Assembly (NCBI GenBank): GCA_020217265.1
Contig: JAIWOS010000020.1
Location: forward strand, 1-16,668
Source: Thiobacillus sp.
GTDB taxonomy: Bacteria > Pseudomonadota > Gammaproteobacteria > Burkholderiales > Thiobacillaceae
Direction of reading: 5' to 3'
DNA: 16,668 nucleotides
In this document: in pieces, positions 1 through 14,104 of the stretch
Layout of the letters: the number at the start of each line of letters is the position of its first letter
How positions within the stretch are numbered: position 1 is the first letter of the stretch
Program-made: the position numbers and the translations under genes
Notes under the pieces: model-generated
What the model was told of the DNA's origin: nothing
What the model saw: only the letters and a program-made list of their open reading frames with translations
Databases searched by the model: none

Positions 1-1224
<1,224 letters not shown>

Positions 1225-1412
1225 TCGAGTGCGTCCCAGAGGCGAGGTGTTCGAGTTGGTCGAGAAACCTGTCGCGCTGCGTGCAGTTGTGTTTCTTCTT
1301 GGCTGCATATTCCAGGGCGGAAAACTCGTTAGCATCGCTCGCCGCGTAAGCCTCGTGGATGATCGGAAAGCATACCCAACGCGAGAAATCAGGGGGTGAA
1401 AATCAGTGTTTC
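1225..1412 (-). mobile_element. IS5-like transposase N-terminal remnant, direct-repeat copy A
   Basis: This ~188-bp stretch is nearly identical, in the same orientation, to 6951-7140. On the minus strand it reads FPIIHEAYAASDANEF, then SALEYAAKKKHNCTQRDRFL and DQLEH. After a shift of one base it continues as WDALERVIAPHY. The order (EYAAKK...RDRFLDQLE...W-DALE..I.PHY) is the layout of the N terminus of IS5-family transposases, where a VPW-type segment joins the two blocks. Here the joining codons are one base short, so the frame is broken, and no catalytic DDE part follows. It starts about 15 bases beyond the stop of the TolC-like gene. The IS5 assignment rests on motif memory, not a search; the repeat itself is seen directly. 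Terminal inverted repeats and target duplications were not identified. Confidence 0.65.
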
Positions 1413-1428
1413 CCTAGGGAGACAATCC

Positions 1429-2850
1429 TCAAAAACTAGGCTGCAGAATCCACAGACCGAGTTGCCCCATGCTTGCCGCAAGGCGCACTCGGGCCGCATG
1501 CCAGTCGGTCTCTGCGTCCACTTTGAGGCGTTCGGTTTCCGCCTGGATTCGCTGGGCCTCGAGCCAGTCCGTGATTCCCACGACACCTTCCCGATACCGA
1601 CCCTCGGTGACGTGCAAGGTTTGCTTGACGCTGCCTGCCAGTGCCAGCACGGCTAGCCTGTTATCCCGGGCGGCCGTCCAGTCCTGATAGGCTGCCCAGA
1701 GTTCCTGCCTGACCTGTCGACGAACAGCGGCAAGCGCCACGCGCTGGCTTTCAAGCTCGGCATCTGCGGCCCGCGCCCGGTAATGCGGTTCAAACCCCTG
1801 AAACAGCGGGACACTCAGTTGCACACCGATGGATACAACATTATCAGGGGATAAGACACTGCTGTTTGGTGGGGGGGAGCGAACATACTGGCCATTCAAG
1901 GTCAGTGCAGGTCTGGCTTCTGCCTTGACGAGACGGAGACGTTGCTCTGCAGCCGAAACTTCGGCCATCGCCGCGGTCACCGCGGGATGGCGGTCCAGCA
2001 TGTCGTCGGACAACTGATCATAAGTTGGAACCGAGTCGTGTCGCAGATTCAGGTCAGCCAGGTCGGGGAGTTGCAATTCGGTTTCGGGCGACAATCCGAG
2101 CGTCAATGCCAGCCTGCCCCTTGCCTTCCGCCACGCGCGTTCTGCCTGCACGCGTTCTGCCGTGGCGCGGGAAGCGGCCGCCTCCGCCATCAACTTGTCC
2201 GTCAGAGCGGTTACTCCAGCTTCGTGAAGCGCCGTTGCGGTCTCGAGTGCGAGCACTGCGAGCCTCTCGGCTTCCCGGCTCGCACGCCAGCCCGCGTGCA
2301 TGCGGGCACTGTCGAGATAGGCCTGAAGAAAATCCAGCATGGCATCCTGCAAGGCCCGATCATGACCGGCATTGGCTGCGTCGAGCAGGGCGCGGGCCTG
2401 CTCCAGACGCGCACCGCGTCGTCCCATGTCGAGCAGCAGCCAATTCATGCGGATGCTGTATCCGCGTGTCGTGGCACTGAATTCCGTTCCCAGGGATCGT
2501 TGGTAGTCCTGTTCAGTTCGCGCGTAGTCCAGGGTCGACGAAAACTGGGGAAGGTACGCCCCCTTGGCCAGTCCGATCTCGGCTGCACGCATCTGCGCCT
2601 GCCGCCAGGATCGCTGTGCTTCGGGATGGTGACACAACGCCCGCGTGAGGGCTTCGAGCATGTCGAGTGGACTGTCCGGTGCACCAAACTTGCAGGTCGG
2701 ATCGTCTGCATTGGCTTGCCCACGAGCCACGCTGTAATGCTGGCTGACGTGTCGGCCTGTGCCAAAGGGATCCTCTAGCAACGAGGCTTCCGCCGACCAT
2801 GAGACGAGAACGGCTAACCACAGTCGGCCCCCCCTTCCTCTCCGCATCAC
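1429..2850 (-). CDS. TolC-family outer-membrane channel of the peptide exporter
   Basis: This protein forms the outer-membrane exit duct of a type I secretion system, docking to the HlyD-type adaptor encoded upstream. It has about 473 residues, the usual TolC-family length. A hydrophobic signal segment (LWLAVLVSWSAEAS) lies near the N terminus. Two repeated halves follow with long helices rich in Ala, Arg, Glu and Gln, as in the TolC alpha-barrel. Typical end-of-strand phrases are visible, such as LLLDMGRRGARLEQA in the first half and SVPLFQGFEPHYRARAA in the second. The start is either GTG at 2850 or ATG at 2847; both overlap the TGA stop of the ABC gene (GTGATG/TGATG), so translation is probably coupled. 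It is the last gene of the exporter operon. There is no clear terminator before the transposase remnant at 1412. Role as TolC-type channel is near certain; the cargo is inferred from context. Confidence 0.92.
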   Translation of the reverse strand: MMRRGRGGRLWLAVLVSWSAEASLLEDPFGTGRHVSQHYSVARGQANADDPTCKFGAPDSPLDMLEALTRALCHHPEAQRSWRQAQMRAAEIGLAKGAYLPQFSSTLDYARTEQDYQRSLGTEFSATTRGYSIRMNWLLLDMGRRGARLEQARALLDAANAGHDRALQDAMLDFLQAYLDSARMHAGWRASREAERLAVLALETATALHEAGVTALTDKLMAEAAASRATAERVQAERAWRKARGRLALTLGLSPETELQLPDLADLNLRHDSVPTYDQLSDDMLDRHPAVTAAMAEVSAAEQRLRLVKAEARPALTLNGQYVRSPPPNSSVLSPDNVVSIGVQLSVPLFQGFEPHYRARAADAELESQRVALAAVRRQVRQELWAAYQDWTAARDNRLAVLALAGSVKQTLHVTEGRYREGVVGITDWLEAQRIQAETERLKVDAETDWHAARVRLAASMGQLGLWILQPSF

Positions 2851-5039
2851 ATCACCGCCTCGGTAGGCTCCCCCTTCATTGCCCGGCGAATCGCCGCAAA
2901 GTTATCGGGAGGCAGGTTCGCCACGATGCGGCCATGGCGCAACACGACCACCCGGTCGGCGGTCGCGATGGTCTGGGGGCGGTGGGCGATGATGATGCGC
3001 GTGAGATCGAGGCTGCGAATGGCCGCATTCACGCGCTCTTCGGATTCGATGTCGAGACTGCTGGTCGCCTCGTCGAGCACGAGGATCTGCGGCTCCCGGT
3101 ACAGCGCGCGTGCCAGCAGCACACGCTGTTTCTGGCCGCCCGAGAGCACCGTGCCCATGTCGCCCACCAGGGTGTTGTAAGCCATGGGCATCGCCTCGAT
3201 ATCCTCATGAATGTCGGCCAGACGGGCACATTTTTCGATCCGCTCCCGATCAGCCGCCGGGTCGAAAAAGGCTATGTTGTCTGCCAGCGATCCAGCGAAC
3301 AGCAGATCATCCTGCGTCACCGCGCCAACCAGCCTGCGGATGCGTTGCGGTCCAATCTGCCGGATATCGGTGCCAAAAAAACAGATCTGCCCGGCGTCGA
3401 TCGCGCGCAACCCCAGGAGAACATGCATCAGCGTCGTCTTTCCACTCCCCGAAGGCCCGACGATGGCAACCGATTCCCCGCGCTCGATCCGGAGATCGAC
3501 ATCCTGGAGCACCCAGGGGGACAGCGCCCCGTAACGGAAACTGACCTTGCTCAATTCCACACACGGTCTGTCGGATGTCGTGTCGAACGTGGCCGCTTCG
3601 GCTCCGTTCGTTTCGAGCTCGATACGGTCCGGTTCCGGTTCGCTCAGCGCGATATCGGCCAGCCGCTCCCCGTGCAGCCGTAACATGCGCAACTCGAAAA
3701 GATGATCGATGAGCGTGGTGCCGCGCTGGCCGAACTGGTCCTTGTAGGCAAGAAACGCCATCAAGGCACCTACCGTGAACTGGTTGTCCATGACCAGCGA
3801 CGCGCCCAGGGCGATGATCGTGACTCGCTCGAGGCCGAACATGAACCCATTGATGTGCCGGTAGAACAATTGCATTTTCTGGGTGCGCACTCCGGCATTG
3901 ATCTCGTCCACCACCAGCGTCAGCCAGGTGTTGCGGCGCTCGCCCGTGCGCTGGAACAACTTGATCGGCTTGATGCCGCGCACGGTTTCCAGAAAATGCG
4001 ACTGCTGCCTGGCGGCATGCACGATCTGCTCCTCGGTCGCCAGCCTGAAGGGGCGCCACCACAGCCAGCGTATCAGGGCAAACGCGAGCATCACCCCCAG
4101 GGCAATGCCGGCCAGCTTGGGACTGTAGACGAACATGACCGCCAGCACGACGAGGGACATGACGCCATCAAGTACTGCCTCGATGAACTGCGACGTGATG
4201 CTCCGCTGAATCACGTCGACCGATCCGAAGCGGGAGACGATGTCACCAAGATGCCTGTTTTCGAAAAAATGCAGCGGCAAGCGCAGAAGATGTGTGAACA
4301 GATTGCTCCGCCACTGCAGATTGAGTGTCGTGGACAGGTAGAGCATCACCCAACCGCGCAAGAGCCCGATGGCCTGCTGGAACAGCACCAGCAAACCAAA
4401 GGCAAGCGCCAATGTCACCAGCAAGTCCCGGTCATTGGCCACGATCACGTCGTCGATCACCCACTGCAGATAGAACGGGCTGACAATGATGAAGACTTCG
4501 AGCACCAGCGCCAGCGCCAAAACCTGGATGAGCGACGGGACGAGTCCCGATACGCGCCCCATCAACTGTGAGAGCGTCACACGCTGTTTCACGACCGCCG
4601 GCATGAAGCCCTCGTCCGGCCAGGCCTCCAATGCCACGCCGGTGAAGCTTCGCGACACGTCCTCGCGGGACAACTCGCGCACCCCGACCGCCGGATCGTG
4701 GATCACGATGGATTTGCCGCGCACCTCCTTCAGGACAACGAAATGATTGAAGTTCCAGTGCAATATGCACGGGCGCCGCAATTCACCGAGGTCGTCCAGT
4801 TCGAGTTTCACCGCGCGGGTCGCCAGCGACATTGCGCCGGCAATCTGCACCAGCTGGTTGAGGGTCACGCCCATCATCGATACGGTGAAGCTGCGGCGAA
4901 GACTGGCAAGATCGATTTTCAGGCCATGGTAGCCGGCCACCATGGCAAGGCAGGCGAGCCCGCACTCGGCAGCCTCGTTCTGCAGGATGAGCGGCAGTTT
5001 GCGGCCGATGCCGAATGCCAGTGACGGAGTCTGATTCAT
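2847..5039 (-). CDS. C39-peptidase ABC exporter (CvaB/RaxB-type bacteriocin transporter)
   Basis: This inner-membrane protein cuts double-glycine leaders and exports the released peptide using ATP. Its 730 residues match the family. The N-terminal C39 peptidase domain has catalytic Cys26 in AECGLACLAM, His99 in HWNFNHFVVL and Asp115 in IHDPAVG, so proteolysis should be active, unlike HlyB-type exporters that have lost the Cys. The six-helix membrane domain spans about residues 165-450. The nucleotide-binding domain has Walker A GPSGSGKT at about 528-535, the signature LSGGQKQR near 630, Walker B ILVLDEATSSLD near 650 and the H-loop IIIAHRP. The gene begins 19 bases after the HlyD-type gene and overlaps the TolC-type gene, forming one operon. 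The obvious substrate is the double-glycine peptide encoded at 6640-6461. Confidence 0.96.
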   Translation of the reverse strand: MNQTPSLAFGIGRKLPLILQNEAAECGLACLAMVAGYHGLKIDLASLRRSFTVSMMGVTLNQLVQIAGAMSLATRAVKLELDDLGELRRPCILHWNFNHFVVLKEVRGKSIVIHDPAVGVRELSREDVSRSFTGVALEAWPDEGFMPAVVKQRVTLSQLMGRVSGLVPSLIQVLALALVLEVFIIVSPFYLQWVIDDVIVANDRDLLVTLALAFGLLVLFQQAIGLLRGWVMLYLSTTLNLQWRSNLFTHLLRLPLHFFENRHLGDIVSRFGSVDVIQRSITSQFIEAVLDGVMSLVVLAVMFVYSPKLAGIALGVMLAFALIRWLWWRPFRLATEEQIVHAARQQSHFLETVRGIKPIKLFQRTGERRNTWLTLVVDEINAGVRTQKMQLFYRHINGFMFGLERVTIIALGASLVMDNQFTVGALMAFLAYKDQFGQRGTTLIDHLFELRMLRLHGERLADIALSEPEPDRIELETNGAEAATFDTTSDRPCVELSKVSFRYGALSPWVLQDVDLRIERGESVAIVGPSGSGKTTLMHVLLGLRAIDAGQICFFGTDIRQIGPQRIRRLVGAVTQDDLLFAGSLADNIAFFDPAADRERIEKCARLADIHEDIEAMPMAYNTLVGDMGTVLSGGQKQRVLLARALYREPQILVLDEATSSLDIESEERVNAAIRSLDLTRIIIAHRPQTIATADRVVVLRHGRIVANLPPDNFAAIRRAMKGEPTEAVM

Positions 5040-5058
5040 GGGCTGCGCGTCGCTCCGT

Positions 5059-6315
5059 TCACAATTTTCCCGACAGGCTGAGCAGCGGTTCCAGTGCCCA
5101 TTCGTACAGGCGGCGGCTCTCGCTCATCAGATCCGCCTCGAGCAGCATCCCTGTCTGCAGGGCGACGGGCTTGCCGTAGGCCATGATCGACTGGTCCTGA
5201 AGCGCTACCTTCACCAGATACATGGGTTCCCCTCCCTGTTCGCCCTTTGCCGCGCCCAGTTCCGCAGGCAGCATCGGCGCGCGCGACACACTCAGCACAC
5301 GGCCTTCCGGCTGCCCGAATTTCTGGTAGGGAAAGGCGTGCAGGCGCAAGCGGACTCGCGTTCCCGCCCGCACGAACCCGGCGCTGCGACTCGGCGCGTA
5401 CAGATGTGCGATCAGCCGGGAGCCCTGCGGGACCACGCTTACCAGCGTCTGCCCGGCCTCGACGGCCTGACCCGGCTCGACCAGTGGCGCCGTGGCCACC
5501 CCGGGTGACGGGGACGGCACGCTGACGCCGCGACGCCCCTCGCTGAGCGTCAACTCCTGCTGATTGCCGGCAATTTCGCGCGCCAGTTGTGACAACTGGG
5601 CCTCGTAGCGGATTCGTGACGCAACCAACTCGCGCTGACGGTCTGCCATCTCTCGCCGAATGCGTACCTGATCACGTTCAAGACCGCGCAACTGCGCCGC
5701 CTGATCGAGCGCGTCCGACTTCTTCTGCTCGTATTGCTCACGTGAAACGTATTTTTTTTCCAGCAATTCGGAGTAGCGCCGCTCGACTTCAATAGAGAGA
5801 CTCGTTCGCTGCTGCTGCAGCGCGATCGCTTTGGCCAGTTTTTCCTCTTCGCTATCCAGCCCGGCAATCTGGCGATGCAGTCCCACGCTTTCCTCGGCCT
5901 GCAATTGCCGAATTTGACGCGCTTCTTCGGAGAGTAGCGCACCCTGAGTACGCACCTGCTCGCCTATCCTCGCCTCGATCTCCCCGCCGTTGCTGGTCTG
6001 CCGCTCACCTGAGAGTACGTACAGAATTTCGCCCGCCCGGATGGTCTGGCCTTCGTCAACCCTGCGTTCCGCAATTCGCCCTGCCTGCGGGGCTGTGATT
6101 CTTATCAGCCCCATATCGGGCATCATCAAACCCGCCACGGTACTACGCCGGGTGTAGGTGCCCAGCGTCAGCACCAGCACAACGGCGAGCCCGATTAGAA
6201 AGGCCAGAAAACTGAGGACACGGTAATTTGTGGGCTGGATGAGTACGACCTCGCCCATCCAGCGGGGTCGGTGCGTCTGAAGGGCTTCGCGCCGAAACAG
6301 CGACTTGCGCGTCAT
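5059..6315 (-). CDS. HlyD/CvaA-type membrane fusion protein
   Basis: This periplasmic adaptor links the C39 ABC exporter to the TolC-type channel. It has 418 residues. A single membrane helix at about residues 33-53 (LSFLAFLIGLAVVLVLTLG) follows a basic cytoplasmic start. The first half of the lipoyl-like domain (ITAPQAGRIAERRVDEGQTI) comes next. A long coiled coil rich in Glu, Gln, Arg and Leu covers about 105-265, followed by the second lipoyl half (VEPGQAVEAGQTLVSVVPQG) and the beta-barrel. The C terminus ALEPLLSLSGKL resembles the closing phrase of colicin V secretion protein CvaA and its relatives. No strong Shine-Dalgarno precedes the ATG, so expression may be modest. It is the first gene of the exporter operon and lies 145 bases after the peptide gene, with a terminator in between. 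Confidence 0.95.
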   Translation of the reverse strand: MTRKSLFRREALQTHRPRWMGEVVLIQPTNYRVLSFLAFLIGLAVVLVLTLGTYTRRSTVAGLMMPDMGLIRITAPQAGRIAERRVDEGQTIRAGEILYVLSGERQTSNGGEIEARIGEQVRTQGALLSEEARQIRQLQAEESVGLHRQIAGLDSEEEKLAKAIALQQQRTSLSIEVERRYSELLEKKYVSREQYEQKKSDALDQAAQLRGLERDQVRIRREMADRQRELVASRIRYEAQLSQLAREIAGNQQELTLSEGRRGVSVPSPSPGVATAPLVEPGQAVEAGQTLVSVVPQGSRLIAHLYAPSRSAGFVRAGTRVRLRLHAFPYQKFGQPEGRVLSVSRAPMLPAELGAAKGEQGGEPMYLVKVALQDQSIMAYGKPVALQTGMLLEADLMSESRRLYEWALEPLLSLSGKL

Positions 6316-6401
6316 CTGCGAAGCGTGCTGCGCGCTGAGAGCGCCGTGTAGGTAAAAGGTGTACGGATCATGTGGTCTGGCGCGTCCTTCGCGCAGGCAA
6401 A

Positions 6402-6429
6402 CAAAAAGCCCACTTTCGCGGGCTTTTTG
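6402..6429 (-). terminator. Intrinsic terminator between the peptide gene and the exporter operon
   Basis: A perfect 10-bp stem (CAAAAAGCCC at 6402-6411 with GGGCTTTTTG at 6420-6429) encloses an 8-base loop. Because the stem carries A5 on one side and T5 on the other, it has a U-tract on either strand and could act in both directions. It lies 31 bases after the stop of the minus-strand peptide gene. The peptide message would mostly end here and only read-through would reach hlyD, giving more peptide than exporter. Confidence 0.85.
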
Positions 6430-6430
6430 C

Positions 6431-6446
6431 CGGGCTATTCAGCCCG
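6431..6446. other. Second small hairpin next to the terminator
   Basis: CGGGCT at 6431-6436 pairs perfectly with AGCCCG at 6441-6446 around the loop ATTC. On the minus strand it lies between the peptide stop codon and the main terminator, so it may stabilise the 3' end of the short peptide mRNA or add to termination. It has no U-tract of its own. Confidence 0.5.
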
Positions 6447-6460
6447 AGTGCCGCTATCGA

Positions 6461-6640
6461 TCAGCGGAACAGGCCACCAAGGAGGCCCATTGCCCCGCCG
6501 AGCAGGCTGCCAAGAAGCGTGAAAGTGCCGCCGGGGGTCAAATTGAACCCGCCGTTCAGGATCGGGTTGTCGCCCACAGCAATGGACAGGCCACCGGACA
6601 CTTCGGACATTTCTGCTTTGTTCAGGACTTCGATCGACAT
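6461..6640 (-). CDS. Double-glycine-leader peptide precursor (candidate microcin/class II bacteriocin)
   Basis: This 59-residue precursor has a classic double-glycine leader. With start ATG 6640-6638 (GGAGGA ends six bases upstream) the leader is MSIEVLNKAEMSEVSGG. It has Leu at -12, Glu at -8, Met at -7, Val at -4 and Gly-Gly at -2/-1, which is the consensus read by C39 peptidases. An in-frame GTG at 6646 is possible but directly abuts the Shine-Dalgarno. The predicted core has 42 residues. Its first half is polar and Gly/Asn/Pro-rich (LSIAVGDNPILNGGFNL) and its last ~20 residues are strongly hydrophobic and glycine-spaced (TLLGSLLGGAMGLLGGLFR). It has no Cys, and no modifying enzyme is nearby, so an unmodified membrane-active peptide is the simplest reading. 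Antibacterial activity is an inference; a signalling or surface role is also possible. Confidence 0.88.
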   Translation of the reverse strand: MSIEVLNKAEMSEVSGGLSIAVGDNPILNGGFNLTPGGTFTLLGSLLGGAMGLLGGLFR

Positions 6641-6647
6641 TTTCACT

Positions 6648-6653
6648 CCTCCA
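6648..6653 (-). promoter_or_regulatory. Shine-Dalgarno that fixes the peptide start
   Basis: On the minus strand GGAGGA is followed directly by GTGAAAATG. The spacing is zero to the GTG and six bases to the ATG at 6640, so the ATG is the better start and shortens the leader from 19 to 17 residues. Confidence 0.8.
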
Positions 6654-6682
6654 ATCAGTTTGGTTGATAATATTACCGTTAA

Positions 6683-6708
6683 GTCAATAGTTAAAAGTAT
6701 CTATTGAC
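6683..6708. promoter_or_regulatory. Perfect 8-bp inverted repeat, operator-like, just downstream of the peptide promoter
   Basis: GTCAATAG at 6683-6690 and CTATTGAC at 6701-6708 are perfect inverse copies separated by 10 bases (centre spacing 18 bp). It lies immediately after the expected transcription start of the peptide gene, the usual place for a repressor operator. The regulator is unknown and is not encoded in the window by anything I recognise. An alternative is a weak A+T-rich hairpin in the 5' leader of the mRNA. Confidence 0.5.
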
Positions 6709-6719
6709 CACGGTTTGGT

Positions 6720-6748
6720 TATATTATTTTGATTGCTCGCATTGTCAA
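6720..6748 (-). promoter_or_regulatory. Sigma-70-type promoter for the peptide gene
   Basis: On the minus strand a consensus -35 TTGACA (6748-6743) is followed after 17 bases by AATATA (6725-6720), or after 16 by TAATAT. The region is A+T-rich in an otherwise G+C-rich genome. The start would fall near 6713, leaving a ~70-base leader before the ATG at 6640. Confidence 0.7.
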
Positions 6749-6950
6749 GTATTGCGATGCTTTTTTTATGGGCTCGGCTGGTTGATTTTTGATCGCCCAT
6801 AAGCGGTGTACGCGGCGACCCACCGACTGGATGCAAGACGATTAAAAAATTTATGCCGGGGAGTTATGCCGGGGTGCAACGGATATCCAGCAAGTCATCT
6901 ATCGACAGATGAATGCCGAGTCAGTGCCACCACGAACAGGCTTGATTAAC
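6749..6950. other. A+T-rich gene-free region with a short tandem repeat
   Basis: No gene is visible. TTATGCCGGGG occurs twice, at 6851-6861 and 6864-6874, two bases apart. Only very short frames (under 30 codons) occur, none with a ribosome binding site. The part next to 6950 may be decayed continuation of the transposase remnant (reading DALELIKP on the minus strand ends near here). Confidence 0.45.
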
Positions 6951-7140
6951 TCGAGTGCGTCCCGGAGAACGGGGCGCTCGCGTTAGTCGAGAAACCTGTC
7001 GCGCTGCGTGCAGTTGTGTTTCTTCTTGGCTGCATATTCCAGGGCGGAAAAACTCGTTAGCATCGCTCGCCGCGTAAGCCTCGTGGATGATCGGAAATCT
7101 TCGCCCATGCAAGAAATCAGGTTGTGAAAATCAGCGTTTC
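6951..7140 (-). mobile_element. IS5-like transposase N-terminal remnant, direct-repeat copy B
   Basis: This is the second copy of the ~190-bp sequence found at 1225-1412, in the same orientation, with long stretches identical. On the minus strand it starts FPIIHEAYAASDANEF. It then has one extra T compared with copy A (five instead of four), which breaks the frame. After correction the reading EYAAKKKHNCTQRDRFLD continues, meets a TAA and then, past a short divergent stretch, resumes as RDALELIKP. In intact IS5-family proteins the equivalent is a PW-DALLELIKPHYP-like segment. It is therefore a dead 5' fragment with lesions different from those of copy A. Together the copies bracket the peptide-export cassette. 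Confidence 0.65.
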
Positions 7141-7183
7141 ACCAAGCTAACGTGTCGTCCGTACCCCGACTTCTTGCCGCCCT

Positions 7184-7202
7184 CATGCGCGGCCCGCGCA
7201 TG
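7184..7202. repeat. Perfect G+C-rich palindrome downstream of the PEP-CTERM gene
   Basis: CATGCGCGG (7184-7192) and CCGCGCATG (7194-7202) are perfect inverse copies around one C. It lies 82 bases past the stop of the minus-strand PEP-CTERM gene. No U-tract follows on either strand, so it is not a canonical intrinsic terminator; a protein-binding palindrome or an mRNA 3'-end structure fits. Confidence 0.45.
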
Positions 7203-7224
7203 GCATCACCGGGCACATCGACTT

Positions 7225-7252
7225 TGTTTGCAACAGCGACCATTTGCAAACA
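7225..7252. repeat. 9-bp inverted repeat with a 10-base spacer
   Basis: TGTTTGCAA at 7225-7233 and TTGCAAACA at 7244-7252 are perfect inverse copies. It lies 33 bases past the stop of the PEP-CTERM gene, so it would form the first hairpin in the 3' untranslated part of that message. There is no U-tract; factor-binding or RNA stabilisation are both open. Confidence 0.45.
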
Positions 7253-7284
7253 GGCCGACATCCAGCACACGCGGGCTGATCGCA

Positions 7285-8043
7285 TCAGGCTATCGCATGA
7301 TTCATGTGTTTCCTGCGCCAATGCACTTTGTATGCAACAAGGCCCAGGCCAACCGCAAGCATTGCCCACTCGCCAGGCTCAGGCACGGTGCCAACCTGGT
7401 CCGGCCTTGGGATCCCTCGGGATAGCTGGACCGCTGACAATGTAGCCACCCCGCTGAACACGGGCGTAAAGCCATCAAAAGGCGATCCAGGCGCAACGAT
7501 TGCGCCTCCCGGCCGGCCATCTCCATCCGTATCCAAAGTCGTGACGTTGAATTGGAACCCCATTGGCAGCGCACTGAGTTGTCCTGAGAAAATCCCCCCG
7601 GGGCTCAAGGCAAAACTCGTTTCCACTGGAACCGATGCTCCATTGATCACAAAGTTGATACTGGCATCGGCGCACATCAACTCGGTTGTGGGGCCATTGC
7701 AGGGGCCCCCATTCACACCTAGCAAGCCCAACGGGTTCAAATACGCGGAGAGTGGCCCCGATGCCTGGAAGGGTAGCGGTCCAAAAAATCCAGACATCGA
7801 AGCTTGTCCGCCAAAAGTTAATGCATCGAGCTTGATCGTTCCCCCAATTGCCGCCGGAGATCCCAGCGCGGTTTCGCCAAAGAACAACTGGTAATCGCCA
7901 TCAAAGTCAAAAGTTAGAATAGGGTGCGTGTTGTTCAAGAGAGTCGTCACGGACCCCAACAAACCAGCTTGCGCCGCGCTGGAAATTGCCATGCTCCCGG
8001 CCAACAGCATGGCATAGGTGAGTTTTTTATTCCCGTTACCCAT
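7285..8043 (-). CDS. PEP-CTERM secreted/surface protein
   Basis: This 252-residue exported protein carries a C-terminal exosortase sorting signal. It starts at ATG 8043 with GAGGAGA upstream. A signal peptide covers residues 1-26 (hydrophobic stretch YAMLLAGSMAISSAAQA, likely cut before Gly27). The C terminus has the full tripartite signal: VPEPGEW at 220-226, a hydrophobic helix (AMLAVGLGLVAY) and a basic cluster (WRRK). In known systems an exosortase removes this signal and the protein is released or anchored with exopolysaccharide. The middle is rich in Gly, Ser, Leu and Phe. It holds a DTDGDG stretch that could bind calcium and two cysteines 11 residues apart that could pair. I do not recognise a named domain. 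It stands alone; no exosortase or EPS gene is in the window. The tail beyond the Arg cluster (HMNHAIA) is a little longer than usual. Confidence 0.88.
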   Translation of the reverse strand: MGNGNKKLTYAMLLAGSMAISSAAQAGLLGSVTTLLNNTHPILTFDFDGDYQLFFGETALGSPAAIGGTIKLDALTFGGQASMSGFFGPLPFQASGPLSAYLNPLGLLGVNGGPCNGPTTELMCADASINFVINGASVPVETSFALSPGGIFSGQLSALPMGFQFNVTTLDTDGDGRPGGAIVAPGSPFDGFTPVFSGVATLSAVQLSRGIPRPDQVGTVPEPGEWAMLAVGLGLVAYKVHWRRKHMNHAIA

Positions 8044-8168
8044 CGTTGTCTCCTCAAATTGTCGATTAATCGAGAGCCAGGCCCAAATCCCGCATTACCC
8101 AGAGATACGATCTGGACACTGCCCCAACTTGGGTACGCGGGCTTCGATGGATTGGATGCACTGCACTT

Positions 8169-8187
8169 AAAAAAGTCCTCCGGGGAC
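8169..8187 (-). terminator. Possible weak terminator after the P-type ATPase gene
   Basis: On the minus strand GTCC (8187-8184) can pair with GGAC (8178-8175) around a five-base loop, followed by a run of six T (8174-8169). The stem is only four base pairs, so this is tentative. It lies about 65 bases after the ATPase stop codon. Confidence 0.35.
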
Positions 8188-8251
8188 AGCAACGGTTTCA
8201 GTACAGCGGCTTTGAACGGCTTGTCATGCCGGGCAAATCAGACAAATCGGA

Positions 8252-10987
8252 TCATGGGGTTGAATCGGTACCCAAAGCGCTGTTCGCCGTTTTGTCAAAG
8301 CACATCCGGTGCCGCAGCCAGGCCTTGCGCGCCTCCTCCAGCGTTCCCATCAGCACTGCCAGCGCCAGTGCCAGCAGCCAGACCTCCATCCCGATCGGCG
8401 CGGTGCCGAACAGCCAGTTTCCGGCGGGTGTGTAGGCGATGAACAGCAACAGTCCGATCTCGCTCGCGATACCGAGCAGGAGGAGGGGGTTGTCGAACCG
8501 ACCGAATGCAAACAGGGAACGCCGCGGGTGGCGGCACAGCAGGACGTTCATCACCTGCATGATCACGATGGTGGCGAAGCAAGCGGTGGTGGCTTCGCGG
8601 TAGAGCGGCGCGCCGGACGCCAGGTGGGCGCCGGTCTGCCAACCGGCAGTTTCCAGCACAAAGAAATACACGGCCATGGCGGCGGCGGCTTCGAGCACAC
8701 CAAGAAACAAATAGGCGCGGGCGACCAGCGCCCATGACAGCAACCGCTCGCTGCGTGCGCGCGGCGGCCGGCGCATGACATCGGGATCGGGCTTTTCGGC
8801 GCCGAGCGCAAGCGCCGGCAGCATGTCAGTGCCGAGGTCGACGGCAAGAATCTGGATGATGGTCAGCGGCAGCGGAATGCGCAGCAGCACGAAGGCGAGG
8901 TAGGGCACCAGTTCGGGGATGTTGGACGACAGGATGTAGGTGAGGAACTTGCGCAGGTTGTCGTACACGGCGCGGCCTTCCTCGATGGCGGCGACGATGC
9001 TGGCGAAGTTGTCGTCGAGCAGGATCATGTCTGCCGCTGCCTTGGCCACGTCGGTTCCGGCCACGCCCATGGCGATGCCAATGTCGGCGGTCTTCAGGGC
9101 GGGCGCGTCGTTGACGCCGTCGCCTGTGACGGCAACGATCTCGCCTTTTTTCTGGAGCGCATCCACCAGTTGCATTTTCTGCTCTGCCGCGACGCGGGCG
9201 AAGAGGATTTCCGGCGCATCCAGCGCCAGCTGCAGCTGCGACGGCGACAGGCGGCGCAGGTCGTCACCGGTGATGACGGCCGGCTGTCCGCCTTGCGCCA
9301 GGCCGATCTCGCGGGCAATGGCCAGCGCCGTATGCGGATGATCACCCGTCACCATGATGACGCGGATGCCCGCCCCGGCGCAGCGAACGATGGCCTGCGG
9401 CACCTCTGGCCGCGGCGGATCTTCCAGCCCGACCAGCCCGGTGAGGATGAGGCCGCGTTCCACCGGCGGCCGCCCGTGCTCTGCCGGGCCATGGGCGAAG
9501 GCCAGCACGCGCAGGCCCGCCTCGGCCATTGCGTCCTGCGCCGCGAGCAACCGGTTTTTCGTGTCTGCATCGAGCGGCGCGATTGTGGCATCGAGCTGCA
9601 CGAAATCGCAGGTCGCGAGCACTGTCTCGAGCGCGCCCTTGCAATAGAGCGTGGCGCCCTGCGGGGTGTCGACACGCACCGACATGCGCTTGCGGTCGGT
9701 GTCGAACGGGATTTCGCCGGTGCGCGTATGGCCGTCTAGCGGCCCCGCAATCTGCCTCCCCATGTCGGCCAATGCCACTTCCATCGGGTCGCCCTGCCAG
9801 GCAGGCGTGCCGTGGTCGTCCATCATTTTGAGGTTGTGGCAGAGCGCGGCATTGATGAATAGCGCTCGGTGCGCCGTCGCCAGGCGCGGCTGCGCCAGCA
9901 ATTCTTCGGCGGCGACAAACCGGCCGCCCAGCCACAGGCGGCGCACCGACATGCGGTTCTGCGTCAGCGTGCCGGTCTTGTCCGACAGGATCACGGTCGT
10001 CGAGCCCAGCGCCTCCACAGCCGGCAGGTGCCGCACCAGCGCTTGACGCCTGGCCATGCGCTGCGTCGCCATGGCCAGCGACAGGGTCACCGTCGGCAGC
10101 AGGCCTTCCGGCACGTTGGCGACGATGATGCCAATGGCGAACAGCAGGTTCTCCCAGAACGGCAGGCCGATTGCCTGGCCGATCAGGTAGAACACGCCGC
10201 CGATGCCGCTGGCGAGAAAAGCCACCATGCGGGACAACCGCCGGATCTCGCGTTGCAGCGGCGAGTGGGCGGCGCCTGCGGTTTGGGTCAGGTGCGCAAT
10301 CCTGCCAAACTCGGTGTGCATGCCGGTGGCGACCACGACGGCGCGCGCGTGCCCCGATACCACCGCAGTGCCGGCCAGCGCCAGGTTTTTCGCGAGCAAG
10401 GGCGACACCTCGGGATGGGGATCGGCATCGCGCGCCCGCGGCAGGGATTCCCCCGTGAGCGTCGCCGTGTTGATCCGCAGTCCCACGGCCTCGATCAGCC
10501 GGCAGTCGGCGGGGACGAAATCGCCTTCTTCCAGCAAGACGACATCGCCGGGCACGAGATCGCTCGCCAGACACTGTTCGATCTTGCCATTGCGCACCAC
10601 CATCACCTGCTGCGGCAGCAAACGGCGCAATGCCGCAATGGCGCGTTCGGCCTTGTATTCCTGCCAGAAGGAAAAGACGCCGTTGACGAGAATGACGCCG
10701 ACGATGGCGATGCCCAGCCGCGCCATGCCCTGGCCGGGATCGAAATGCTCGGCGAGAAACGCCAGCGCCGCGCCCAGCCACAGGATGATGGCGAAGAAGT
10801 GGGTGAACTCGCGGGCAAGGCGCAGCAGCAGATGCGGTCGCGGCACCTCCTCGACGAGGTTGGGTCCGAATTCTCTGAGCCGGCGCTGCGCCTCGGCCGC
10901 AGTCAGGCCCGCCGCCGAGGAGTGCAGGCTGTCGAGGGACTGTTCTGCGCTGAGGCTCTGAATAGGCAAGATTGCGGGACACGGCAC
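8252..10987 (-). CDS. P-type cation-transporting ATPase (Na+/K+-type, IIC-like)
   Basis: This inner-membrane pump of 911 residues moves cations using a phosphoenzyme cycle. The N-terminal cation-ATPase domain is at about 10-75. The actuator motif TGES is at 178-181, the M4 ion-site phrase NVPEGLLPTV at 291-300, and phosphorylated Asp336 lies in DKTGTLTQN. The KGALE nucleotide-binding phrase, MVTGDHPHTA and TGDGVNDAPALKTADIG follow. The M5-M6 region has SNIPELVPYLAF and DLGTDMLPALAL. These membrane phrases match eukaryotic Na+/K+- and H+/K+-ATPases (NVPEG, SNIPE, DLGTD) better than SERCA-type or heavy-metal pumps, so Na+ or K+ is more likely than Ca2+. That is inference, and annotation pipelines often call such proteins Ca2+ or Mg2+ ATPases. 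The start is GTG 10987, as no in-frame ATG lies near. It is divergent from the MFS gene, 108 bases away. Confidence 0.93.
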   Translation of the reverse strand: MPCPAILPIQSLSAEQSLDSLHSSAAGLTAAEAQRRLREFGPNLVEEVPRPHLLLRLAREFTHFFAIILWLGAALAFLAEHFDPGQGMARLGIAIVGVILVNGVFSFWQEYKAERAIAALRRLLPQQVMVVRNGKIEQCLASDLVPGDVVLLEEGDFVPADCRLIEAVGLRINTATLTGESLPRARDADPHPEVSPLLAKNLALAGTAVVSGHARAVVVATGMHTEFGRIAHLTQTAGAAHSPLQREIRRLSRMVAFLASGIGGVFYLIGQAIGLPFWENLLFAIGIIVANVPEGLLPTVTLSLAMATQRMARRQALVRHLPAVEALGSTTVILSDKTGTLTQNRMSVRRLWLGGRFVAAEELLAQPRLATAHRALFINAALCHNLKMMDDHGTPAWQGDPMEVALADMGRQIAGPLDGHTRTGEIPFDTDRKRMSVRVDTPQGATLYCKGALETVLATCDFVQLDATIAPLDADTKNRLLAAQDAMAEAGLRVLAFAHGPAEHGRPPVERGLILTGLVGLEDPPRPEVPQAIVRCAGAGIRVIMVTGDHPHTALAIAREIGLAQGGQPAVITGDDLRRLSPSQLQLALDAPEILFARVAAEQKMQLVDALQKKGEIVAVTGDGVNDAPALKTADIGIAMGVAGTDVAKAAADMILLDDNFASIVAAIEEGRAVYDNLRKFLTYILSSNIPELVPYLAFVLLRIPLPLTIIQILAVDLGTDMLPALALGAEKPDPDVMRRPPRARSERLLSWALVARAYLFLGVLEAAAAMAVYFFVLETAGWQTGAHLASGAPLYREATTACFATIVIMQVMNVLLCRHPRRSLFAFGRFDNPLLLLGIASEIGLLLFIAYTPAGNWLFGTAPIGMEVWLLALALAVLMGTLEEARKAWLRHRMCFDKTANSALGTDSTP

Positions 10988-11095
10988 TGGACCTGTTCAG
11001 CATAGCCCAGCGCCGCGATGGCCGCCTGTCGTCCGCGGCAACGGTACTATGTTGACCCGCTGTTTCCAGTCGAGCTCTGCCTCGCCACCCGCTCG

Positions 11096-12508
11096 ATGAC
11101 GCTCTCCCCGGTTAAAACCACCCTGCCCTGGATCGTGGCGGTGGCGCTGTTCATGGAGCAGCTCGACACCACCATCGTGAACACCGCCGTGCCGGCGATG
11201 GCGGCGAGTCTCGGCGTGACGCCGCTGAGCCTGAAGGCGGTGGTGACGAGCTATATCCTGAGCCTCGCGGTGGGGATACCGGTGAGCGGCTGGATGGCGG
11301 ACCGCTTCGGCACGCGGCGGGTGTTCTTCACCGCGGTGGCGGTGTTCACCGGCGCTTCGATCCTGTGCGGGCTGGCGCAGAACCTGCCGATGCTGGTGGC
11401 GGGGCGCATACTGCAGGGGGCGGGCGCGGCGATGATGATGCCGGTGGGGCGGCTGGCGATCATCCGCACCTTTCCCAAGGGCGAGCTGTTGCGGGCGATG
11501 AATTTCGTGATCGTGCCGGCGCTGATCGGCCCCCTGATCGGGCCGACGCTGGGCGGGCTGATCGTGCACTGGGCGTCGTGGCGGCTGATCTTTTTCGTCA
11601 ACGTGCCGGTGGGGCTGGCGGCGCTGTGGCTGGCGCACCGCCACATGCCGGACTATCACGGCGAATCGCCGCGCCCGCTCGACGTGGTCGGGCTGGCGCT
11701 GTTCGGCGGCGGCGCGGCGCTGTTGTCGTGGCTGCTGGAAATCTTTGGCGAGCACGAGCTGGATGCGACCTCGGGCGTGTTGCTGCTGACGCTGAGCCTG
11801 GCCTTGCTGGCGGCGTATGGCTGGCACGCGCGCGAGGCCGCGCATCCGCTGTTGCGGCTGACGCTGTTCCGCGTGCGCACGTTTCGCGTGTCGGTGGCGG
11901 GCGGCTTCGCCACGCGCCTGGGGGTGGGTGGCATGCCGTTTCTGCTGCCGCTCTTCTACCAGGTGGGGCTCGGCATGCCGGCGTGGCAATCGGGTCTTTT
12001 GATGATGCCGGTGGCGGCGGCGGCGATGGCGATGAAGTTCATCGCGCCGCGCCTGCTGGCGCGCTTCGGCTACCGGCGGATTCTGACAGTGAACACGGTG
12101 ATGATCGGCGTGGTGATCTGCGGCTTCGCGACGGTGGGCCCGGACACGCCGCTGGCCGCGATCGTGCTGCTGGCGCTGGCGCTGGGCTTCTTCAACTCAT
12201 TGCAGTACACCAGCATGAACTCGATGGCGTATGCGGACATCGGGGCGGCCGACTCGAGCATGGCGAGCACGATCGCCAGTTCGATGCAGCAGATGTCGAT
12301 GAGCTTCGGGCTGGCCTGCGGCTCGCTGATCGCGGCGTGGTACCTGGGCGGCCTGCCGCAGACCGATCAGGCCGCGGTCGCATCCGCCCTGCATCACGCG
12401 TTTCTGACGGTGGGCGGGTTCACCGCCCTGTCCTCGCTGTCGTTCTGGAGCTTGCGCCAGCGCGATGGCGAAAGCGTCAGTCGCGGAACACGGGGGCTGA
12501 CGGAATAG
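11096..12508 (+). CDS. MFS drug-efflux transporter, DHA2 (14-helix) family
   Basis: This inner-membrane proton-driven exporter has 470 residues with start ATG 11096. The same frame is open from 11018, but the extra 26 residues are polar and unlike the family. The opening LPWIVAVALFMEQLDTTIVN is the hallmark first helix of DHA2-family pumps such as MdtD/EmrB (D-x-T-I-V-N). Motif A appears as GWMADRFGTRR and the antiporter motif C as ALIGPLIGPTLGG. About 14 hydrophobic helices can be traced. Charged residues in helix 1 (Glu and Asp of MEQLD) fit a proton-coupled antiporter. Likely substrates are small toxic organic compounds, but none can be named from sequence. No partner membrane fusion protein is adjacent, so it resembles the single-component MdtD type. 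No clear Shine-Dalgarno is seen. Confidence 0.92.
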   Translation: MTLSPVKTTLPWIVAVALFMEQLDTTIVNTAVPAMAASLGVTPLSLKAVVTSYILSLAVGIPVSGWMADRFGTRRVFFTAVAVFTGASILCGLAQNLPMLVAGRILQGAGAAMMMPVGRLAIIRTFPKGELLRAMNFVIVPALIGPLIGPTLGGLIVHWASWRLIFFVNVPVGLAALWLAHRHMPDYHGESPRPLDVVGLALFGGGAALLSWLLEIFGEHELDATSGVLLLTLSLALLAAYGWHAREAAHPLLRLTLFRVRTFRVSVAGGFATRLGVGGMPFLLPLFYQVGLGMPAWQSGLLMMPVAAAAMAMKFIAPRLLARFGYRRILTVNTVMIGVVICGFATVGPDTPLAAIVLLALALGFFNSLQYTSMNSMAYADIGAADSSMASTIASSMQQMSMSFGLACGSLIAAWYLGGLPQTDQAAVASALHHAFLTVGGFTALSSLSFWSLRQRDGESVSRGTRGLTE

Positions 12509-12544
12509 GTCGGCCAGCGGAGGGGTTCGGGCGCCCGCTGGCAT

Positions 12545-12571
12545 AAAAAAACCGGGCCACAGGTGCCCGGT
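12545..12571 (-). terminator. Intrinsic terminator of the small secreted-protein gene
   Basis: On the minus strand ACCGGGC (12571-12565) pairs with GCCCGGT (12557-12551) around a 7-base loop and is followed by T6 (12550-12545). It sits 27 bases past the stop of the gene at 12598-12891. On the plus strand there is no U-tract, so it mainly serves the minus-strand gene and only incidentally blocks read-through from the MFS gene. Confidence 0.8.
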
Positions 12572-12597
12572 CCGCACAGCCGCCGGACGGGCGGGAT

Positions 12598-12891
12598 TCA
12601 GCGCCGGCTGCCGCCGATCGCGGCGCCACCGGTCGCGGCGCGGTCGGACATGCCGCGCACGGTGGTCGTCGTGTCCTGGTAGCGGTTGACGCTGTCCGCG
12701 CCTGCGCCCTGGCGGACGAAGTCGCGGAATTGCGTGGTGCTGAGGTTGTCCTCGATGCGCGTGTTGTGAATGTCGTTGGGCATGTTGGCCCAGCCGGCGC
12801 CGTGGATGCTGTTGTGGTCGGCCATGGCAGCGACCGGGGAGAGGGCCGCCAGGGCAGCGCCAAGAACGAAGGTACGGGTAACAGCTTTCAT
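12598..12891 (-). CDS. Small secreted protein of unknown function
   Basis: This 97-residue protein has a clear Sec signal peptide: MKAVTR, then the hydrophobic stretch TFVLGAALAALSPVAAMA, with likely cleavage before Asp25. The mature part of about 73 residues is hydrophilic and Asn/Asp/Arg/Thr-rich, with phrases such as HNSIHGAGWANMPNDIHN and TTQFRDFVRQG. It has no Cys and no transmembrane helix, and ends in a Gly-rich, Arg-ended tail (GGAAIGGSRR). It starts at ATG 12891 with AGGAG upstream and ends just before a strong terminator, so it is a single-gene transcription unit. I do not recognise the family. A periplasmic location is well supported; the function is unknown. Confidence 0.78.
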   Translation of the reverse strand: MKAVTRTFVLGAALAALSPVAAMADHNSIHGAGWANMPNDIHNTRIEDNLSTTQFRDFVRQGAGADSVNRYQDTTTTVRGMSDRAATGGAAIGGSRR

Positions 12892-13337
12892 GAAAGGCTC
12901 CTAATTCAGGTTGACAAGCCTGCGCACGAACTTTCGCACGCAGTCCGGCCATGGTGCGGGCGTGCTGTGAGCCTTGTTTTTCCAAGCTGTTTCAGGTTGT
13001 TTGAAAATCGTTACGCCGCGTTCCCGGGCACGCGGCGGCAAGGTTTGCCTTACGCTGCCATGGCCCGGCAGCGTGCCCCTGTCGTCGTGCGGCGACAGCC
13101 TTTCCGGCTGCTATCTCGCTGATTTACTGAATGATTGCCCGGGCCTGGCGGTTGCGCTGTTGCCCCGGGGCGACATCCGGGCGGAAGTTTGCCCGCGGCA
13201 TGGGCCTGCATATTCTTCCATTGCATTGATTCATATCGGCTTTCATGGACTGGCCCGCGGCTTGCTGAGGATGGGCTGCCGCGTTCCGGCCCCCCCGCCC
13301 GGAGCGTTTTGCAACCCGTATCCGAAAGAGACCCGCC
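12892..13337. other. Gene-free divergent region with a G+C-rich hairpin
   Basis: This 446-base region separates two divergent genes and should hold both promoters. No convincing ORF is seen; the open frames lack ribosome binding sites and family resemblance. An 8-bp perfect stem (CGCCGCGT at 13014-13021 with ACGCGGCG at 13030-13037, loop TCCCGGGC) is present. I cannot assign promoters with confidence. Confidence 0.4.
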
Positions 13338-13913
13338 ATGCTCAAGACCCTGATGCACCCCGGCCCCAACGGCCACCCCCGCAGCGACACGTCCCGTCCC
13401 GCGGCGTCGGCGCCCGGCCGCACCCACGACGCCGACAAATCCTTCGAAACCGGCCGCGATGCGGCCAGCCGTTCAAACCCGAAGGACGAGGGCAGCAAGC
13501 TCATCGTCGGCCCGAACATCAAGCTCAAGGGCTCGGAAATCACCGACTGCGAAATTCTGGTGGTGGAAGGCCGGGTAGAGGCCTCGATGAACAGCCGCGA
13601 CATCCGCATCGCCGAAGGCGGCGTGTTTTCCGGCCGCGCGGAAATCGACGTGGCCGAGGTGCGCGGAACCTTCGAGGGCGATCTGGTCGCCCGCAAGCGG
13701 CTGGTGGTGTATGCCACCGGCCGGGTCAACGGCACCATCCGCTATGGCGCGATGATGGTCGAGCAAGGCGGCGTGATTTCCGGCAACGTGGCGCTGCATT
13801 CCGCCCATGCCCCGGAGAAGGTCGCTGCTGCCAGCGGGCCTGCCGACGACGCGGGCGCCTCCAATCTGGAAATCCTGCCTGCCGCGCGCAGCCTCGGCAG
13901 CCGCGCATCATGA
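13338..13913 (+). CDS. Bactofilin-family cytoskeletal protein
   Basis: Bactofilins polymerise without nucleotides into filaments at the inner membrane and organise cell-wall enzymes, polysaccharide synthesis or chromosome partners. This 191-residue protein starts at ATG 13338 with AAAGAGA upstream. A disordered, Pro/Ser/Arg-rich N tail of about 50 residues precedes the DUF583 beta-helix at about 52-150. The beta-helix shows the repeated short-strand pattern with Gly turns: KLIVGPNIKLKGSEITDCE, LVVEGRVEASM, RGTFEGDLVARKRLVVYATG, RVNGTIRYGAMMVEQGGVIS. A short tail follows. The first ~20 residues carry no obvious membrane helix. Its stop overlaps the start of a small downstream ORF by four bases. 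No M23 peptidase, a common bactofilin partner, is adjacent. Confidence 0.92.
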   Translation: MLKTLMHPGPNGHPRSDTSRPAASAPGRTHDADKSFETGRDAASRSNPKDEGSKLIVGPNIKLKGSEITDCEILVVEGRVEASMNSRDIRIAEGGVFSGRAEIDVAEVRGTFEGDLVARKRLVVYATGRVNGTIRYGAMMVEQGGVISGNVALHSAHAPEKVAAASGPADDAGASNLEILPAARSLGSRAS

Positions 13914-14104
13914 ACGCGCGGCAGAAAAGCGGCGGCTGTCACCATGCGGCGACGCCGGCCGTGCGCAGCCGCGCACGGGACCGCAATTTCCTGCGCTTCG
14001 GCGCGCGGCGCGTGCAGGCCCGGCTGCACGCGGTGCAGGCCAATGACCACGTCGAAGGCTTCGAGGGCTACCTGCCCGGCTGGCTGCGCGAGGTGCGCCG
14101 CTAG
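13910..14104 (+). CDS. Small basic protein, translationally coupled to the bactofilin
   Basis: This 64-codon ORF starts at ATG 13910, overlapping the bactofilin TGA as ATGA, and ends at TAG 14104. The product is very basic in its first two thirds (RSRARDRNFLRFGARR, then VQARLHAV). It closes with a more acidic and aromatic part (HVEGFEGYLPGWLREVRR). There are Cys and His residues near the N terminus (GGCHHAA) but no clear metal motif. No signal peptide or membrane helix is seen. The exact ATGA overlap and an open frame that ends one base before the next gene's stop support reality. I do not recognise the family. The coupling suggests a partner of the bactofilin, which is inference. In G+C-rich DNA, long open frames arise by chance, so doubt remains. 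Confidence 0.55.
   Translation: MNARQKSGGCHHAATPAVRSRARDRNFLRFGARRVQARLHAVQANDHVEGFEGYLPGWLREVRR

Follow-up and report, generated by a model that had tools for sequence, protein, structure and literature searches.

Does a short double-glycine peptide gene, followed in a betaproteobacterium by the genes of a complete type I exporter, constitute a microcin system, or does it encode an exported peptide of another kind? According to the available text of two sources (PMC10233263; PMC9746304), nearly all microcins described to date are from Enterobacteriaceae. A small gene set in chemolithotrophic betaproteobacteria that combines export genes, a channel of its own and a conserved, unnamed peptide family makes competition or signalling by peptides in sulfur-cycle communities open to test. 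The missing adjacent immunity gene (see below) raises an obvious question; should the peptide prove an ordinary bacteriocin, it would add another member to a known type. The locus lies in a stretch of 16,668 nucleotides of DNA from Thiobacillus sp., a sulfur-oxidising bacterium, hereafter the window.

Layout of the export cassette

The cassette is a four-gene unit on the minus strand, in the order peptide, HlyD, C39-ABC and TolC type, with the following elements:

6721..6748, minus strand: sigma-70-like promoter TTGACA-16-TAATAT, 5' of the peptide gene (consensus match only)
6683..6708, minus strand: inverted repeat GTCAATA-N12-TATTGAC, a candidate operator or 5' UTR stem-loop (pattern scans, RNA fold)
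6461..6640, minus strand: 59-aa double-glycine precursor peptide (ATG start, GGAGGA upstream; homologues; dN/dS)
6401..6446, minus strand: two hairpins immediately 3' of the peptide gene; that at 6401-6430, the second, resembles a terminator and has a U run (RNA fold; conservation)
5059..6315, minus strand: HlyD/CvaA-type periplasmic adaptor, 418 aa (Pfam HlyD_3, E 4.8e-16)
2847..5039, minus strand: C39-peptidase ABC transporter (CvaB/PCAT type), 730 aa (Peptidase_C39, E 1.3e-37; ABC_membrane; ABC_tran)
1429..2850, minus strand: TolC-family outer-membrane channel, 473 aa from GTG (OEP, E 2.8e-48)
1243..1412, minus strand: flanking direct repeat, copy 1, a probable remnant (5' part) of an IS5-family transposase gene
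6951..7140, minus strand: flanking direct repeat, copy 2, oriented as copy 1 and 90% identical to it

The initial annotation had proposed a self-contained export cassette with its own TolC-type gene, and in this respect it was borne out by the coordinates and the Pfam matches of the precursor, HlyD, C39-ABC and TolC-type genes. The close packing that it described is also present: 19 nt separate the hlyD stop from the ABC start (5040-5058) and the ABC stop overlaps the tolC start by 4 nt (2847-2850), while 145 nt lie between the peptide gene and hlyD. In an alignment to the peptidase-containing transporter 4ry2, the C39 domain carries the three expected residues C26, H99 and D115, which we take to be catalytic, as well as Q20. 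With this Cys-His-Asp set, ABC membrane and ATPase domains, and adjoining adaptor and channel genes, the locus belongs to the peptidase-containing ABC exporter cassettes. The initial annotation had remarked that many microcin loci borrow the outer-membrane channel from the host; its presence here is not special, as a TolC-type gene adjoins the transporter also in 5 of 20 relatives fetched from the order and on a Paraburkholderia plasmid. An NHLP (nitrile-hydratase-like leader) export system was rejected on profile scores (TIGR03796, 497.5 against a cut-off of 853.3 bits; TIGR03794, 52.2 against 156.2).

The putative promoter agrees with the consensus at 10 of 12 bases, and positions 1000-8200 contain five promoter-like sites where shuffled sequence has 2.4 on average. 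The inverted repeat is exact and at an equal position in both Thiobacillus cassettes known from the genus genomes, which account for two of its three exact matches in 56 genomes; with one mismatch allowed it occurs in 14/56 (reversed control pattern, 2/56), it is absent from 200 window shuffles, and its RNA fold z values are -3.26 and -3.81. The peptide-hlyD spacer also folds strongly (z -3.74; -4.61 in a second computation), the region of the second hairpin is identical at 41 of 42 bases in the second Thiobacillus species, and each of the five cassettes examined has hairpins 3' of its peptide gene. The spacer hairpin is missing from the output of a simple terminator scan. No Rfam family matches at its gathering score, and sub-threshold matches in the spacer (e.g., Trp_leader, 24 against 41 bits) were taken as chance. 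Neither the spacer hairpin nor the 5' UTR inverted repeat figured in the initial annotation.

A peptide under purifying selection

The precursor comprises a leader (residues 1-17) and a predicted mature peptide (residues 18-59) of 42 aa, 4103 Da and a charge of about 0. From L6 onward the leader fits the double-glycine consensus M(R/K)ELX3E(I/L)X2(I/V)XG(G/A), as given in the available text of PMC3140520, with M11 replacing I/L; L6, E10, V14, G16 and G17 are invariant in all 22 alignment rows. This short GG-ended leader, whose hydrophobic and acidic positions follow the published pattern, identifies a double-glycine precursor, which the cognate C39 domain would cut after G17. The mature peptide is neutral, hydrophobic and Gly/Leu-rich, with a glycine-spaced C-terminal half. 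Its C terminus (GGAMGLLGGLFR) contains no serine and hence no Gly/Ser-rich siderophore attachment motif, so a class IIb microcin was rejected; siderophore-modification families are absent from the window ORFs that were profiled.

The gene is more than a chance reading frame, because 14 other proteins match the peptide at E <= 2.4e-14 and because change relative to the second Thiobacillus copy is predominantly synonymous. With a dN/dS of 0.087 for the peptide, 0.098 for HlyD, 0.107 for the ABC transporter and 0.136 for the TolC type, purifying selection on the peptide is as strong as on the exporter genes. The family members, annotated as hypothetical proteins in Thiobacillus, Sulfuricella, Piscinibacter, Propionivibrio and Thiomicrospira, are conserved in leader and core and belong to a wider set of double-glycine peptides rich in Gly and Leu. 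Mean alignment entropy is 1.11 bits in the core and 0.98 in the leader, so that the core appears nearly as conserved, in a comparison that is biased because the rows were picked by similarity; mature peptides of class II microcins are described as having low to no sequence homology (PMC10233263, available text).

The statement that the peptide is undescribed agrees with the profile searches, in which no curated family reaches its own cut-off. The best Pfam match is PF10439 Bacteriocin_IIc, whose profile is covered by leader and Gly-rich hydrophobic core at 53 of 59 positions. The score of 17.8-18 bits is below the curated cut-off of 27.1, and the peptide is not assigned to this family. Several weak profile matches of the peptide set fall in bacteriocin families. 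Relatives were not found in viral contigs, plasmids or phages, nor was a description of the family in the open-licence PubMed Central texts as far as these were available; the family is without a name, and its export machinery is of the known bacteriocin-export type. In 33 further genus genomes the profile gave weak matches (E 0.005 to 1), for the most part covering residues 33-61 within frames of 161-168 aa, and in the genomes G056, G116, G160 and G273 it gave matches covering residues 18-56 within frames of 357-371 aa. All of these lack the leader and were set aside as effects of hydrophobic composition.

Peptide and exporter occur in the same 2 of 56 Thiobacillus genomes (Fisher p 0.0006), with equal gene order, an equal 145-nt gap and different flanking genes. 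An exporter always accompanied by a different substrate would have refuted the initial annotation by its own terms; both copies found in the genus pair the exporter with this peptide. A broad peptide profile matches 9 of 40 exporter-bearing genomes against none of 40 taken as exporter-lacking (p 0.0024), or 6 of 37 against 0 of 40 when the three genomes that donated alignment rows are removed (p 0.0098), and for 10 of its 13 matches an exporter gene is no more than about 5 kb away; a Sulfuricella relative (L026) is not linked to one. Related exporters of other genera often have other double-glycine peptides at that position. Hits of a loose double-glycine pattern at more than about 500 bp from hlyD were not counted, because its background is 0.18 hits per kb and strand.

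Immunity and the nature of the peptide

A bacteriocin normally needs an immunity gene. For microcins, the available text of PMC10233263 names the immunity protein as a basic component and assigns one to each class II member, encoded typically in an adjacent position. The gene sought here was an adjacent one of 51-216 aa, typically for a predicted membrane protein; hydrophobicity is not a requirement of such genes. The comparison of the 187 open frames of positions 1-8200 with the second copy (L027) brought up none beside either cassette copy: matches at E <= 0.01 fall within the four genes, opposite them or in the peptide-hlyD spacer, and the rest are short matches by chance or to PEP-CTERM tails. 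No small ORF except the peptide is common to both copies, and none beside the peptide combines a hydrophobic stretch with a ribosome site. The one other strongly hydrophobic small ORF with a ribosome-site-like stretch (plus strand, 1190-1399) lies inside a flanking repeat, 0.03 kb beyond tolC, and has no L027 counterpart. The adjacent immunity gene of a class II microcin is thus not evident at the locus, and the earlier claim of a complete microcin-type system is not supported. A distant immunity gene is conceivable, since the assembly (G000) is fragmented, with 84.6% completeness.

Microcin V (colicin V; cvaC-cvi / cvaA-cvaB / tolC) likewise combines a double-glycine precursor, a C39-ABC transporter, an HlyD-type adaptor and a TolC-type channel (PMC10233263, available text). 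In the window, by contrast, the peptide gene comes first, before a terminator-like hairpin, no immunity gene was found next to it, the TolC-type gene is inside the cassette, and the peptide has no Pfam MccV match; within the wider set, MccV is matched by one member of 30 (E 0.037). The mcbABCI locus of Moraxella catarrhalis (pLQ510) also has HlyD, C39-ABC (51% identical) and a small double-glycine peptide, whereas there the peptide and an overlapping immunity gene, mcbI, follow the transporter, and the stretch as listed is without a TolC gene. A tblastn search of the plasmid collection, pLQ510 included, gave no match to the window's peptide at E <= 1. A Sulfuricella cassette (L090) and that of a relative in the order, genome G117 (L062), share the arrangement peptide-hairpins-HlyD-C39 ABC-TolC, exporters 58-60% identical to those of the window and a similar leader (MAIQELNKQEIAVVSGG), but their core is another Gly/Leu-rich sequence without the NPI..NG..TPGG motif. 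Bacteroidetocins, too, are double-glycine peptides with a C39-ABC and no obvious immunity protein; they differ in being cysteine-bearing peptides of Bacteroidota, encoded with thiol oxidoreductase and TM protein genes and, in the text available, without an HlyD/TolC set (PMC6671954).

The interpretation that we favor, with a probability of roughly 0.55, is a dedicated, horizontally acquired type I export cassette for one secreted, membrane-active, bacteriocin-like peptide without a dedicated adjacent immunity protein. The peptide gene would be transcribed from its own promoter, and most transcripts would stop at the hairpin while a minority read through into hlyD-ABC-tolC, therefore giving much peptide and little exporter. 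After cleavage, the transporter, adaptor and channel would, judging from their families, carry the 42-residue peptide outside, where it would most likely insert into membranes through its glycine-spaced C-terminal half and act against related bacteria. The domains and C39 residues, the joint occurrence of peptide and exporter, the purifying selection, the hairpins 3' of the peptide gene and Bacteriocin_IIc as best Pfam match speak for this interpretation. Against it speak the immunity gene not found beside the peptide, the nearly leader-like conservation of the core, the sub-threshold PF10439 score, the unlinked L026 relative, the hairpin's absence from the terminator scan and the high E values of the IS5 matches.

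The peptide could instead be a signal, a surface or biofilm component or a trigger of self-lysis, a tentative reading for which the lack of an adjoining immunity gene and the conserved core under purifying selection argue. Such roles are known for some double-glycine peptides of Gram-negative bacteria; precedents, from the available texts, include the EbfG biofilm proteins (PMC4997328), RaxX (PMC6637879) and the Neisseria Nap peptides, which promote autolysis without detectable antimicrobial activity (PMC11798529). Its patchy occurrence (2/56 genus genomes) and probable IS bracketing nevertheless suit an accessory weapon, several of the weak profile matches fall in bacteriocin families, and no receptor or regulator gene is seen in the cassette. 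A more specific form appears doubtful, namely a distinct Gram-negative exported family of sulfur-oxidising and other Proteobacteria, with the conserved core NPI-NG-TPGG-FTL-GSLLGG and no immunity protein, expressed as a hairpin-bounded monocistron, in which orphan peptides share one exporter and which belongs to a secreted signal or self-lysis class and not to the microcins.

A class II microcin proper, whose immunity gene is distant or unrecognised or whose exporter takes that role, is unlikely: although leader, C39 transporter, adaptor and channel are all there, and the transporter resembles that of pLQ510, for which killing and immunity are published, both the ORF comparison and the immunity protein described for each class II microcin weigh against it. 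Still more improbable, and by far, is that the main substrates are encoded elsewhere and the peptide is one passenger among several or an incidental one. In Sulfuricella, a different peptide is linked to the cassette and a peptide of this family lies apart from it, and exporters of other genera carry other peptides, but the broad profile finds this peptide alone in the incomplete G000 assembly and the genus copies keep peptide, hairpin and exporter together.

Flanking repeats

The repeats that bracket the cassette, which the initial annotation did not include, are of ~170 bp. They are probably IS5-family remnants, an assignment based on matches with E 0.1-0.3, and the cassette may have been acquired by transfer.

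Anatomy and expression signals of the export cassette

The four genes occupy the minus-strand positions assigned to them in the initial annotation, and the spacing it reported (19 nt between two genes and a 4-nt overlap between others) is borne out by their coordinates:

1429-2850, minus strand: TolC-type gene
2847-5039, minus strand: C39-ABC exporter gene
5059-6315, minus strand: HlyD gene
6461-6640, minus strand: double-glycine peptide gene
1243-1412 and 6951-7140, same orientation: two direct repeats (about 170 bp; 90% identity) bracketing the cassette
1190-1399, plus strand: strongly hydrophobic small ORF in a flanking repeat

The TolC-type, C39-ABC and HlyD proteins are matched with strong E-values by Pfam and NCBIfam profiles, residues 14-708 of the ABC protein align to the solved bacteriocin transporter 4ry2, and C26, H99 and D115 are located in it. 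The cassette is real and its anatomy had been correctly read; peptide export, as originally inferred, is well supported.

A promoter-like match (TTGACA-16-TAATAT) occurs upstream of the peptide gene, followed, ahead of the start codon, by the inverted repeat GTCAATA-N12-TATTGAC, which is exact in the two Thiobacillus cassettes (the second in genome G031). Three exact occurrences were found in 56 genomes of the genus, the third in G029; with one mismatch the motif is present in 14/56 genomes vs. 2/56 for the reversed control, and its RNA form folds better than shuffled sequences. It could equally be an RNA stem-loop or an operator. Two hairpins, the second carrying a U run, directly follow the peptide stop codon; in this region, GCCCGGCAAAAAGCCCGCGaAAGTGGGCTTTTTGTTTGCCTG, one base (lower case) differs between the two species, and outside it the 145-nt spacer has diverged. 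Strong hairpins are also found 3' of the peptide gene in the relatives' stretches L062, L064 and L090. The site was not listed by a simple terminator scan, and the hairpins are read as a putative terminator with partial read-through.

Distribution and linkage of peptide and exporter

Searches of the 56 genus genomes found the peptide (at E < 1e-30) and the exporter (at E <= 1e-100, up to 19 candidates scored per genome) in the same two, the window's own and G031. The G031 cassette, on contig 22 (JAIWOL010000079.1, "Thiobacillus sp. isolate W96"), has the same gene order and different flanks: a PEP-CTERM-like protein and motA/motB-like genes, named from reading of translations. In the window, one flank holds a PEP-CTERM protein and a P-type ATPase, and the genes of the opposite flank have no Pfam match. 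Within a draw of 399 genomes from the order, the own genome included, the exporter is found at E <= 1e-150 in at least 44, a lower bound as the two best candidates per genome were scored; a leader-bearing peptide match was obtained in the own genome only. A pattern scan of genome_contigs matched 56 stretches, of which two loci encode a relative, one on the contig of G031 and one on a contig of Sulfuricella.

The first homologue search with the peptide returned eight proteins, seven besides the window's own. A profile search and a third search, both scoring the 8000 candidates sharing most words, gave 16 proteins at E <= 10 (15 at E <= 2.4e-14) and 73 at E <= 10 (25 at E <= 1e-5, the window's own included), respectively. 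Source names, given for a minority of these 25, include Thiobacillus, Propionivibrio, Sulfuricella, Piscinibacter and Thiomicrospira microaerophila, with the proteins labelled hypothetical. Residues L6, E10, V14, G16, G17, L18, P26, P36 and L57 are invariant in a 22-row alignment, and the two Thiobacillus copies differ by 27.5 synonymous and 11.5 non-synonymous changes (dN/dS 0.087). The fetched members of the small-protein set P0030 to P0072 show a near-constant leader (e.g., MAIQVLKQEEINEVSGG), together with variable repeats rich in Gly, Leu and Val (for example GLVGSL..VTGLLGGLL); source names in this set also include Gallionellaceae (P0044) and Hydrogenophilaceae (P0066), and P0035 is named bacteriocin-like.

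Twenty neighbourhoods of related exporters (51-63% identical to the window's) were fetched. The HlyD gene precedes the ABC gene in all of them, although cut by the contig end in two (L072, L075), and a gene similar to the window TolC directly follows the exporter in 5/20, a count that more distant TolC types would escape and in which some contigs are short. Among the 18 that include the hlyD start, seven (L062, L064, L066, L067, L070, L071, L078) have a candidate double-glycine ORF no more than 500 bp upstream of it, compared with about 1.6 expected from background under the same loose leader pattern, and one further candidate (L076) was spotted by eye; within 4 kb, this pattern gave no candidate in L063, L065, L074, L079 and L080. 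These peptides are mostly unlike the window's. The nearest in type, from the order relative G117 (L062) and Sulfuricella (L090), combine the leader MAIQELNKQEIAVVSGG with a Gly/Leu-rich core, and both loci likewise present peptide, hairpins, HlyD, C39 ABC and TolC in order. The G117 cassette has a second wider-family peptide right behind its TolC gene (L101, G117:C10:127199-127357). The Sulfuricella genome encodes an unlinked family peptide (L026:10001-10201) and also a complete cassette whose own peptide is a different one (L090:7699-7923), an arrangement that may reflect orphan substrates of one exporter. The transporter tree unites the two Thiobacillus proteins (100/100), and L066 groups with the pair (99/95); deeper branching in this half is mostly without resolution.

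Association was also examined using a profile built on 30 rows from the wider set of Gly/Leu-rich double-glycine peptides. At E <= 0.01 it matched 9/40 exporter-bearing and 0/40 exporter-lacking genomes, or 6/37 vs. 0/40 without the three matching genomes that had supplied profile rows. The exporter-bearing sample was 40 of 46 (44 from the order draw, G031 and G451, six being left out). The exporter-lacking genomes were hand-chosen rather than random, 23 of them from the window's own family; 31 were named as without match in exporter searches, and nine (G046, G047, G049, G052-G055, G058, G059) were taken as lacking because they were absent where matching genomes were listed in full. Of the 13 profile matches, ten have an exporter gene no more than about 5 kb away, the others being on G451 contig 50, in G382 and on G056 contig 113; G451 and G456, apparently one Sulfuricella genome (same coordinates), were counted once.

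Immunity and possible roles of the peptide

A review counts an immunity protein among the basic components that class II microcin loci share (PMC10233263). Open frames of 25 codons or more from window positions 1-8200, 187 in all, were compared with the G031 stretch (L027), on an incomplete assembly of the window genome. The matches fall on either strand of the four genes or on the hairpin of the peptide-hlyD spacer, or are short, namely a PEP-CTERM tail and chance pieces. A scan of the stretches around either end of the cassettes for small ORFs with a ribosome-site-like stretch turned up a single strongly hydrophobic one apart from the peptide, at 1190-1399, which has no counterpart in L027. 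No immunity gene was thus found beside the peptide; the cassette is therefore not filed as a class II microcin, and this result weakens the earlier reading as a complete microcin system. Bacteroidetocins provide a precedent for absence of an immunity protein (PMC6671954), and neither hydrophobicity nor adjacency is required of immunity proteins, as a cupin-like example shows (PMC10333792); the peptide may still work like a class II microcin.

The predicted mature peptide (42 residues, 4103 Da, GRAVY 0.84, no net charge) has leucines spaced by glycines in its second half, features that would suit membrane insertion. Double-glycine peptides of Gram-negative bacteria include killers such as Moraxella McbC (PMC2761928) and Acinetobacter Mcc17978 (PMC10333792), biofilm proteins (PMC4997328) and autolysis peptides (PMC11798529).

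Flanking repeats and neighbouring sequence

The bracketing repeats suggest that the cassette was acquired by recombination or as a composite element. One repeat frame matches the N-terminal part of plasmid proteins annotated as IS5-family or DDE transposases (63-67% over 27 residues, with E of only 0.1-0.3), and the repeats are probable remnants of an IS5-family transposase gene. Contig 31 carries a third, short match of 46 bp, weak matches occur in three other genomes of the genus, and a search of G031 gave none. The GC content of the cassette (0.59-0.64) is slightly under that of 8.4-16.2 kb (0.65-0.73), and the 6.6-8.4 kb stretch is lower still (0.50-0.58).

The PEP-CTERM protein adjoining the cassette (7285-8043, minus strand) scores 22.8 bits against a cut-off of 20.7. 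Ordinary neighbours occupy 8252-16038 (P-type cation ATPase, DHA2-type MFS transporter, bactofilin, pteridine reductase and a Methyltransf_28 protein), and the contig end carries a 145-bp repeat (16067-16211 and 16264-16408, 97% identical, 197 bp apart) with G-rich/C-rich inverted arms.
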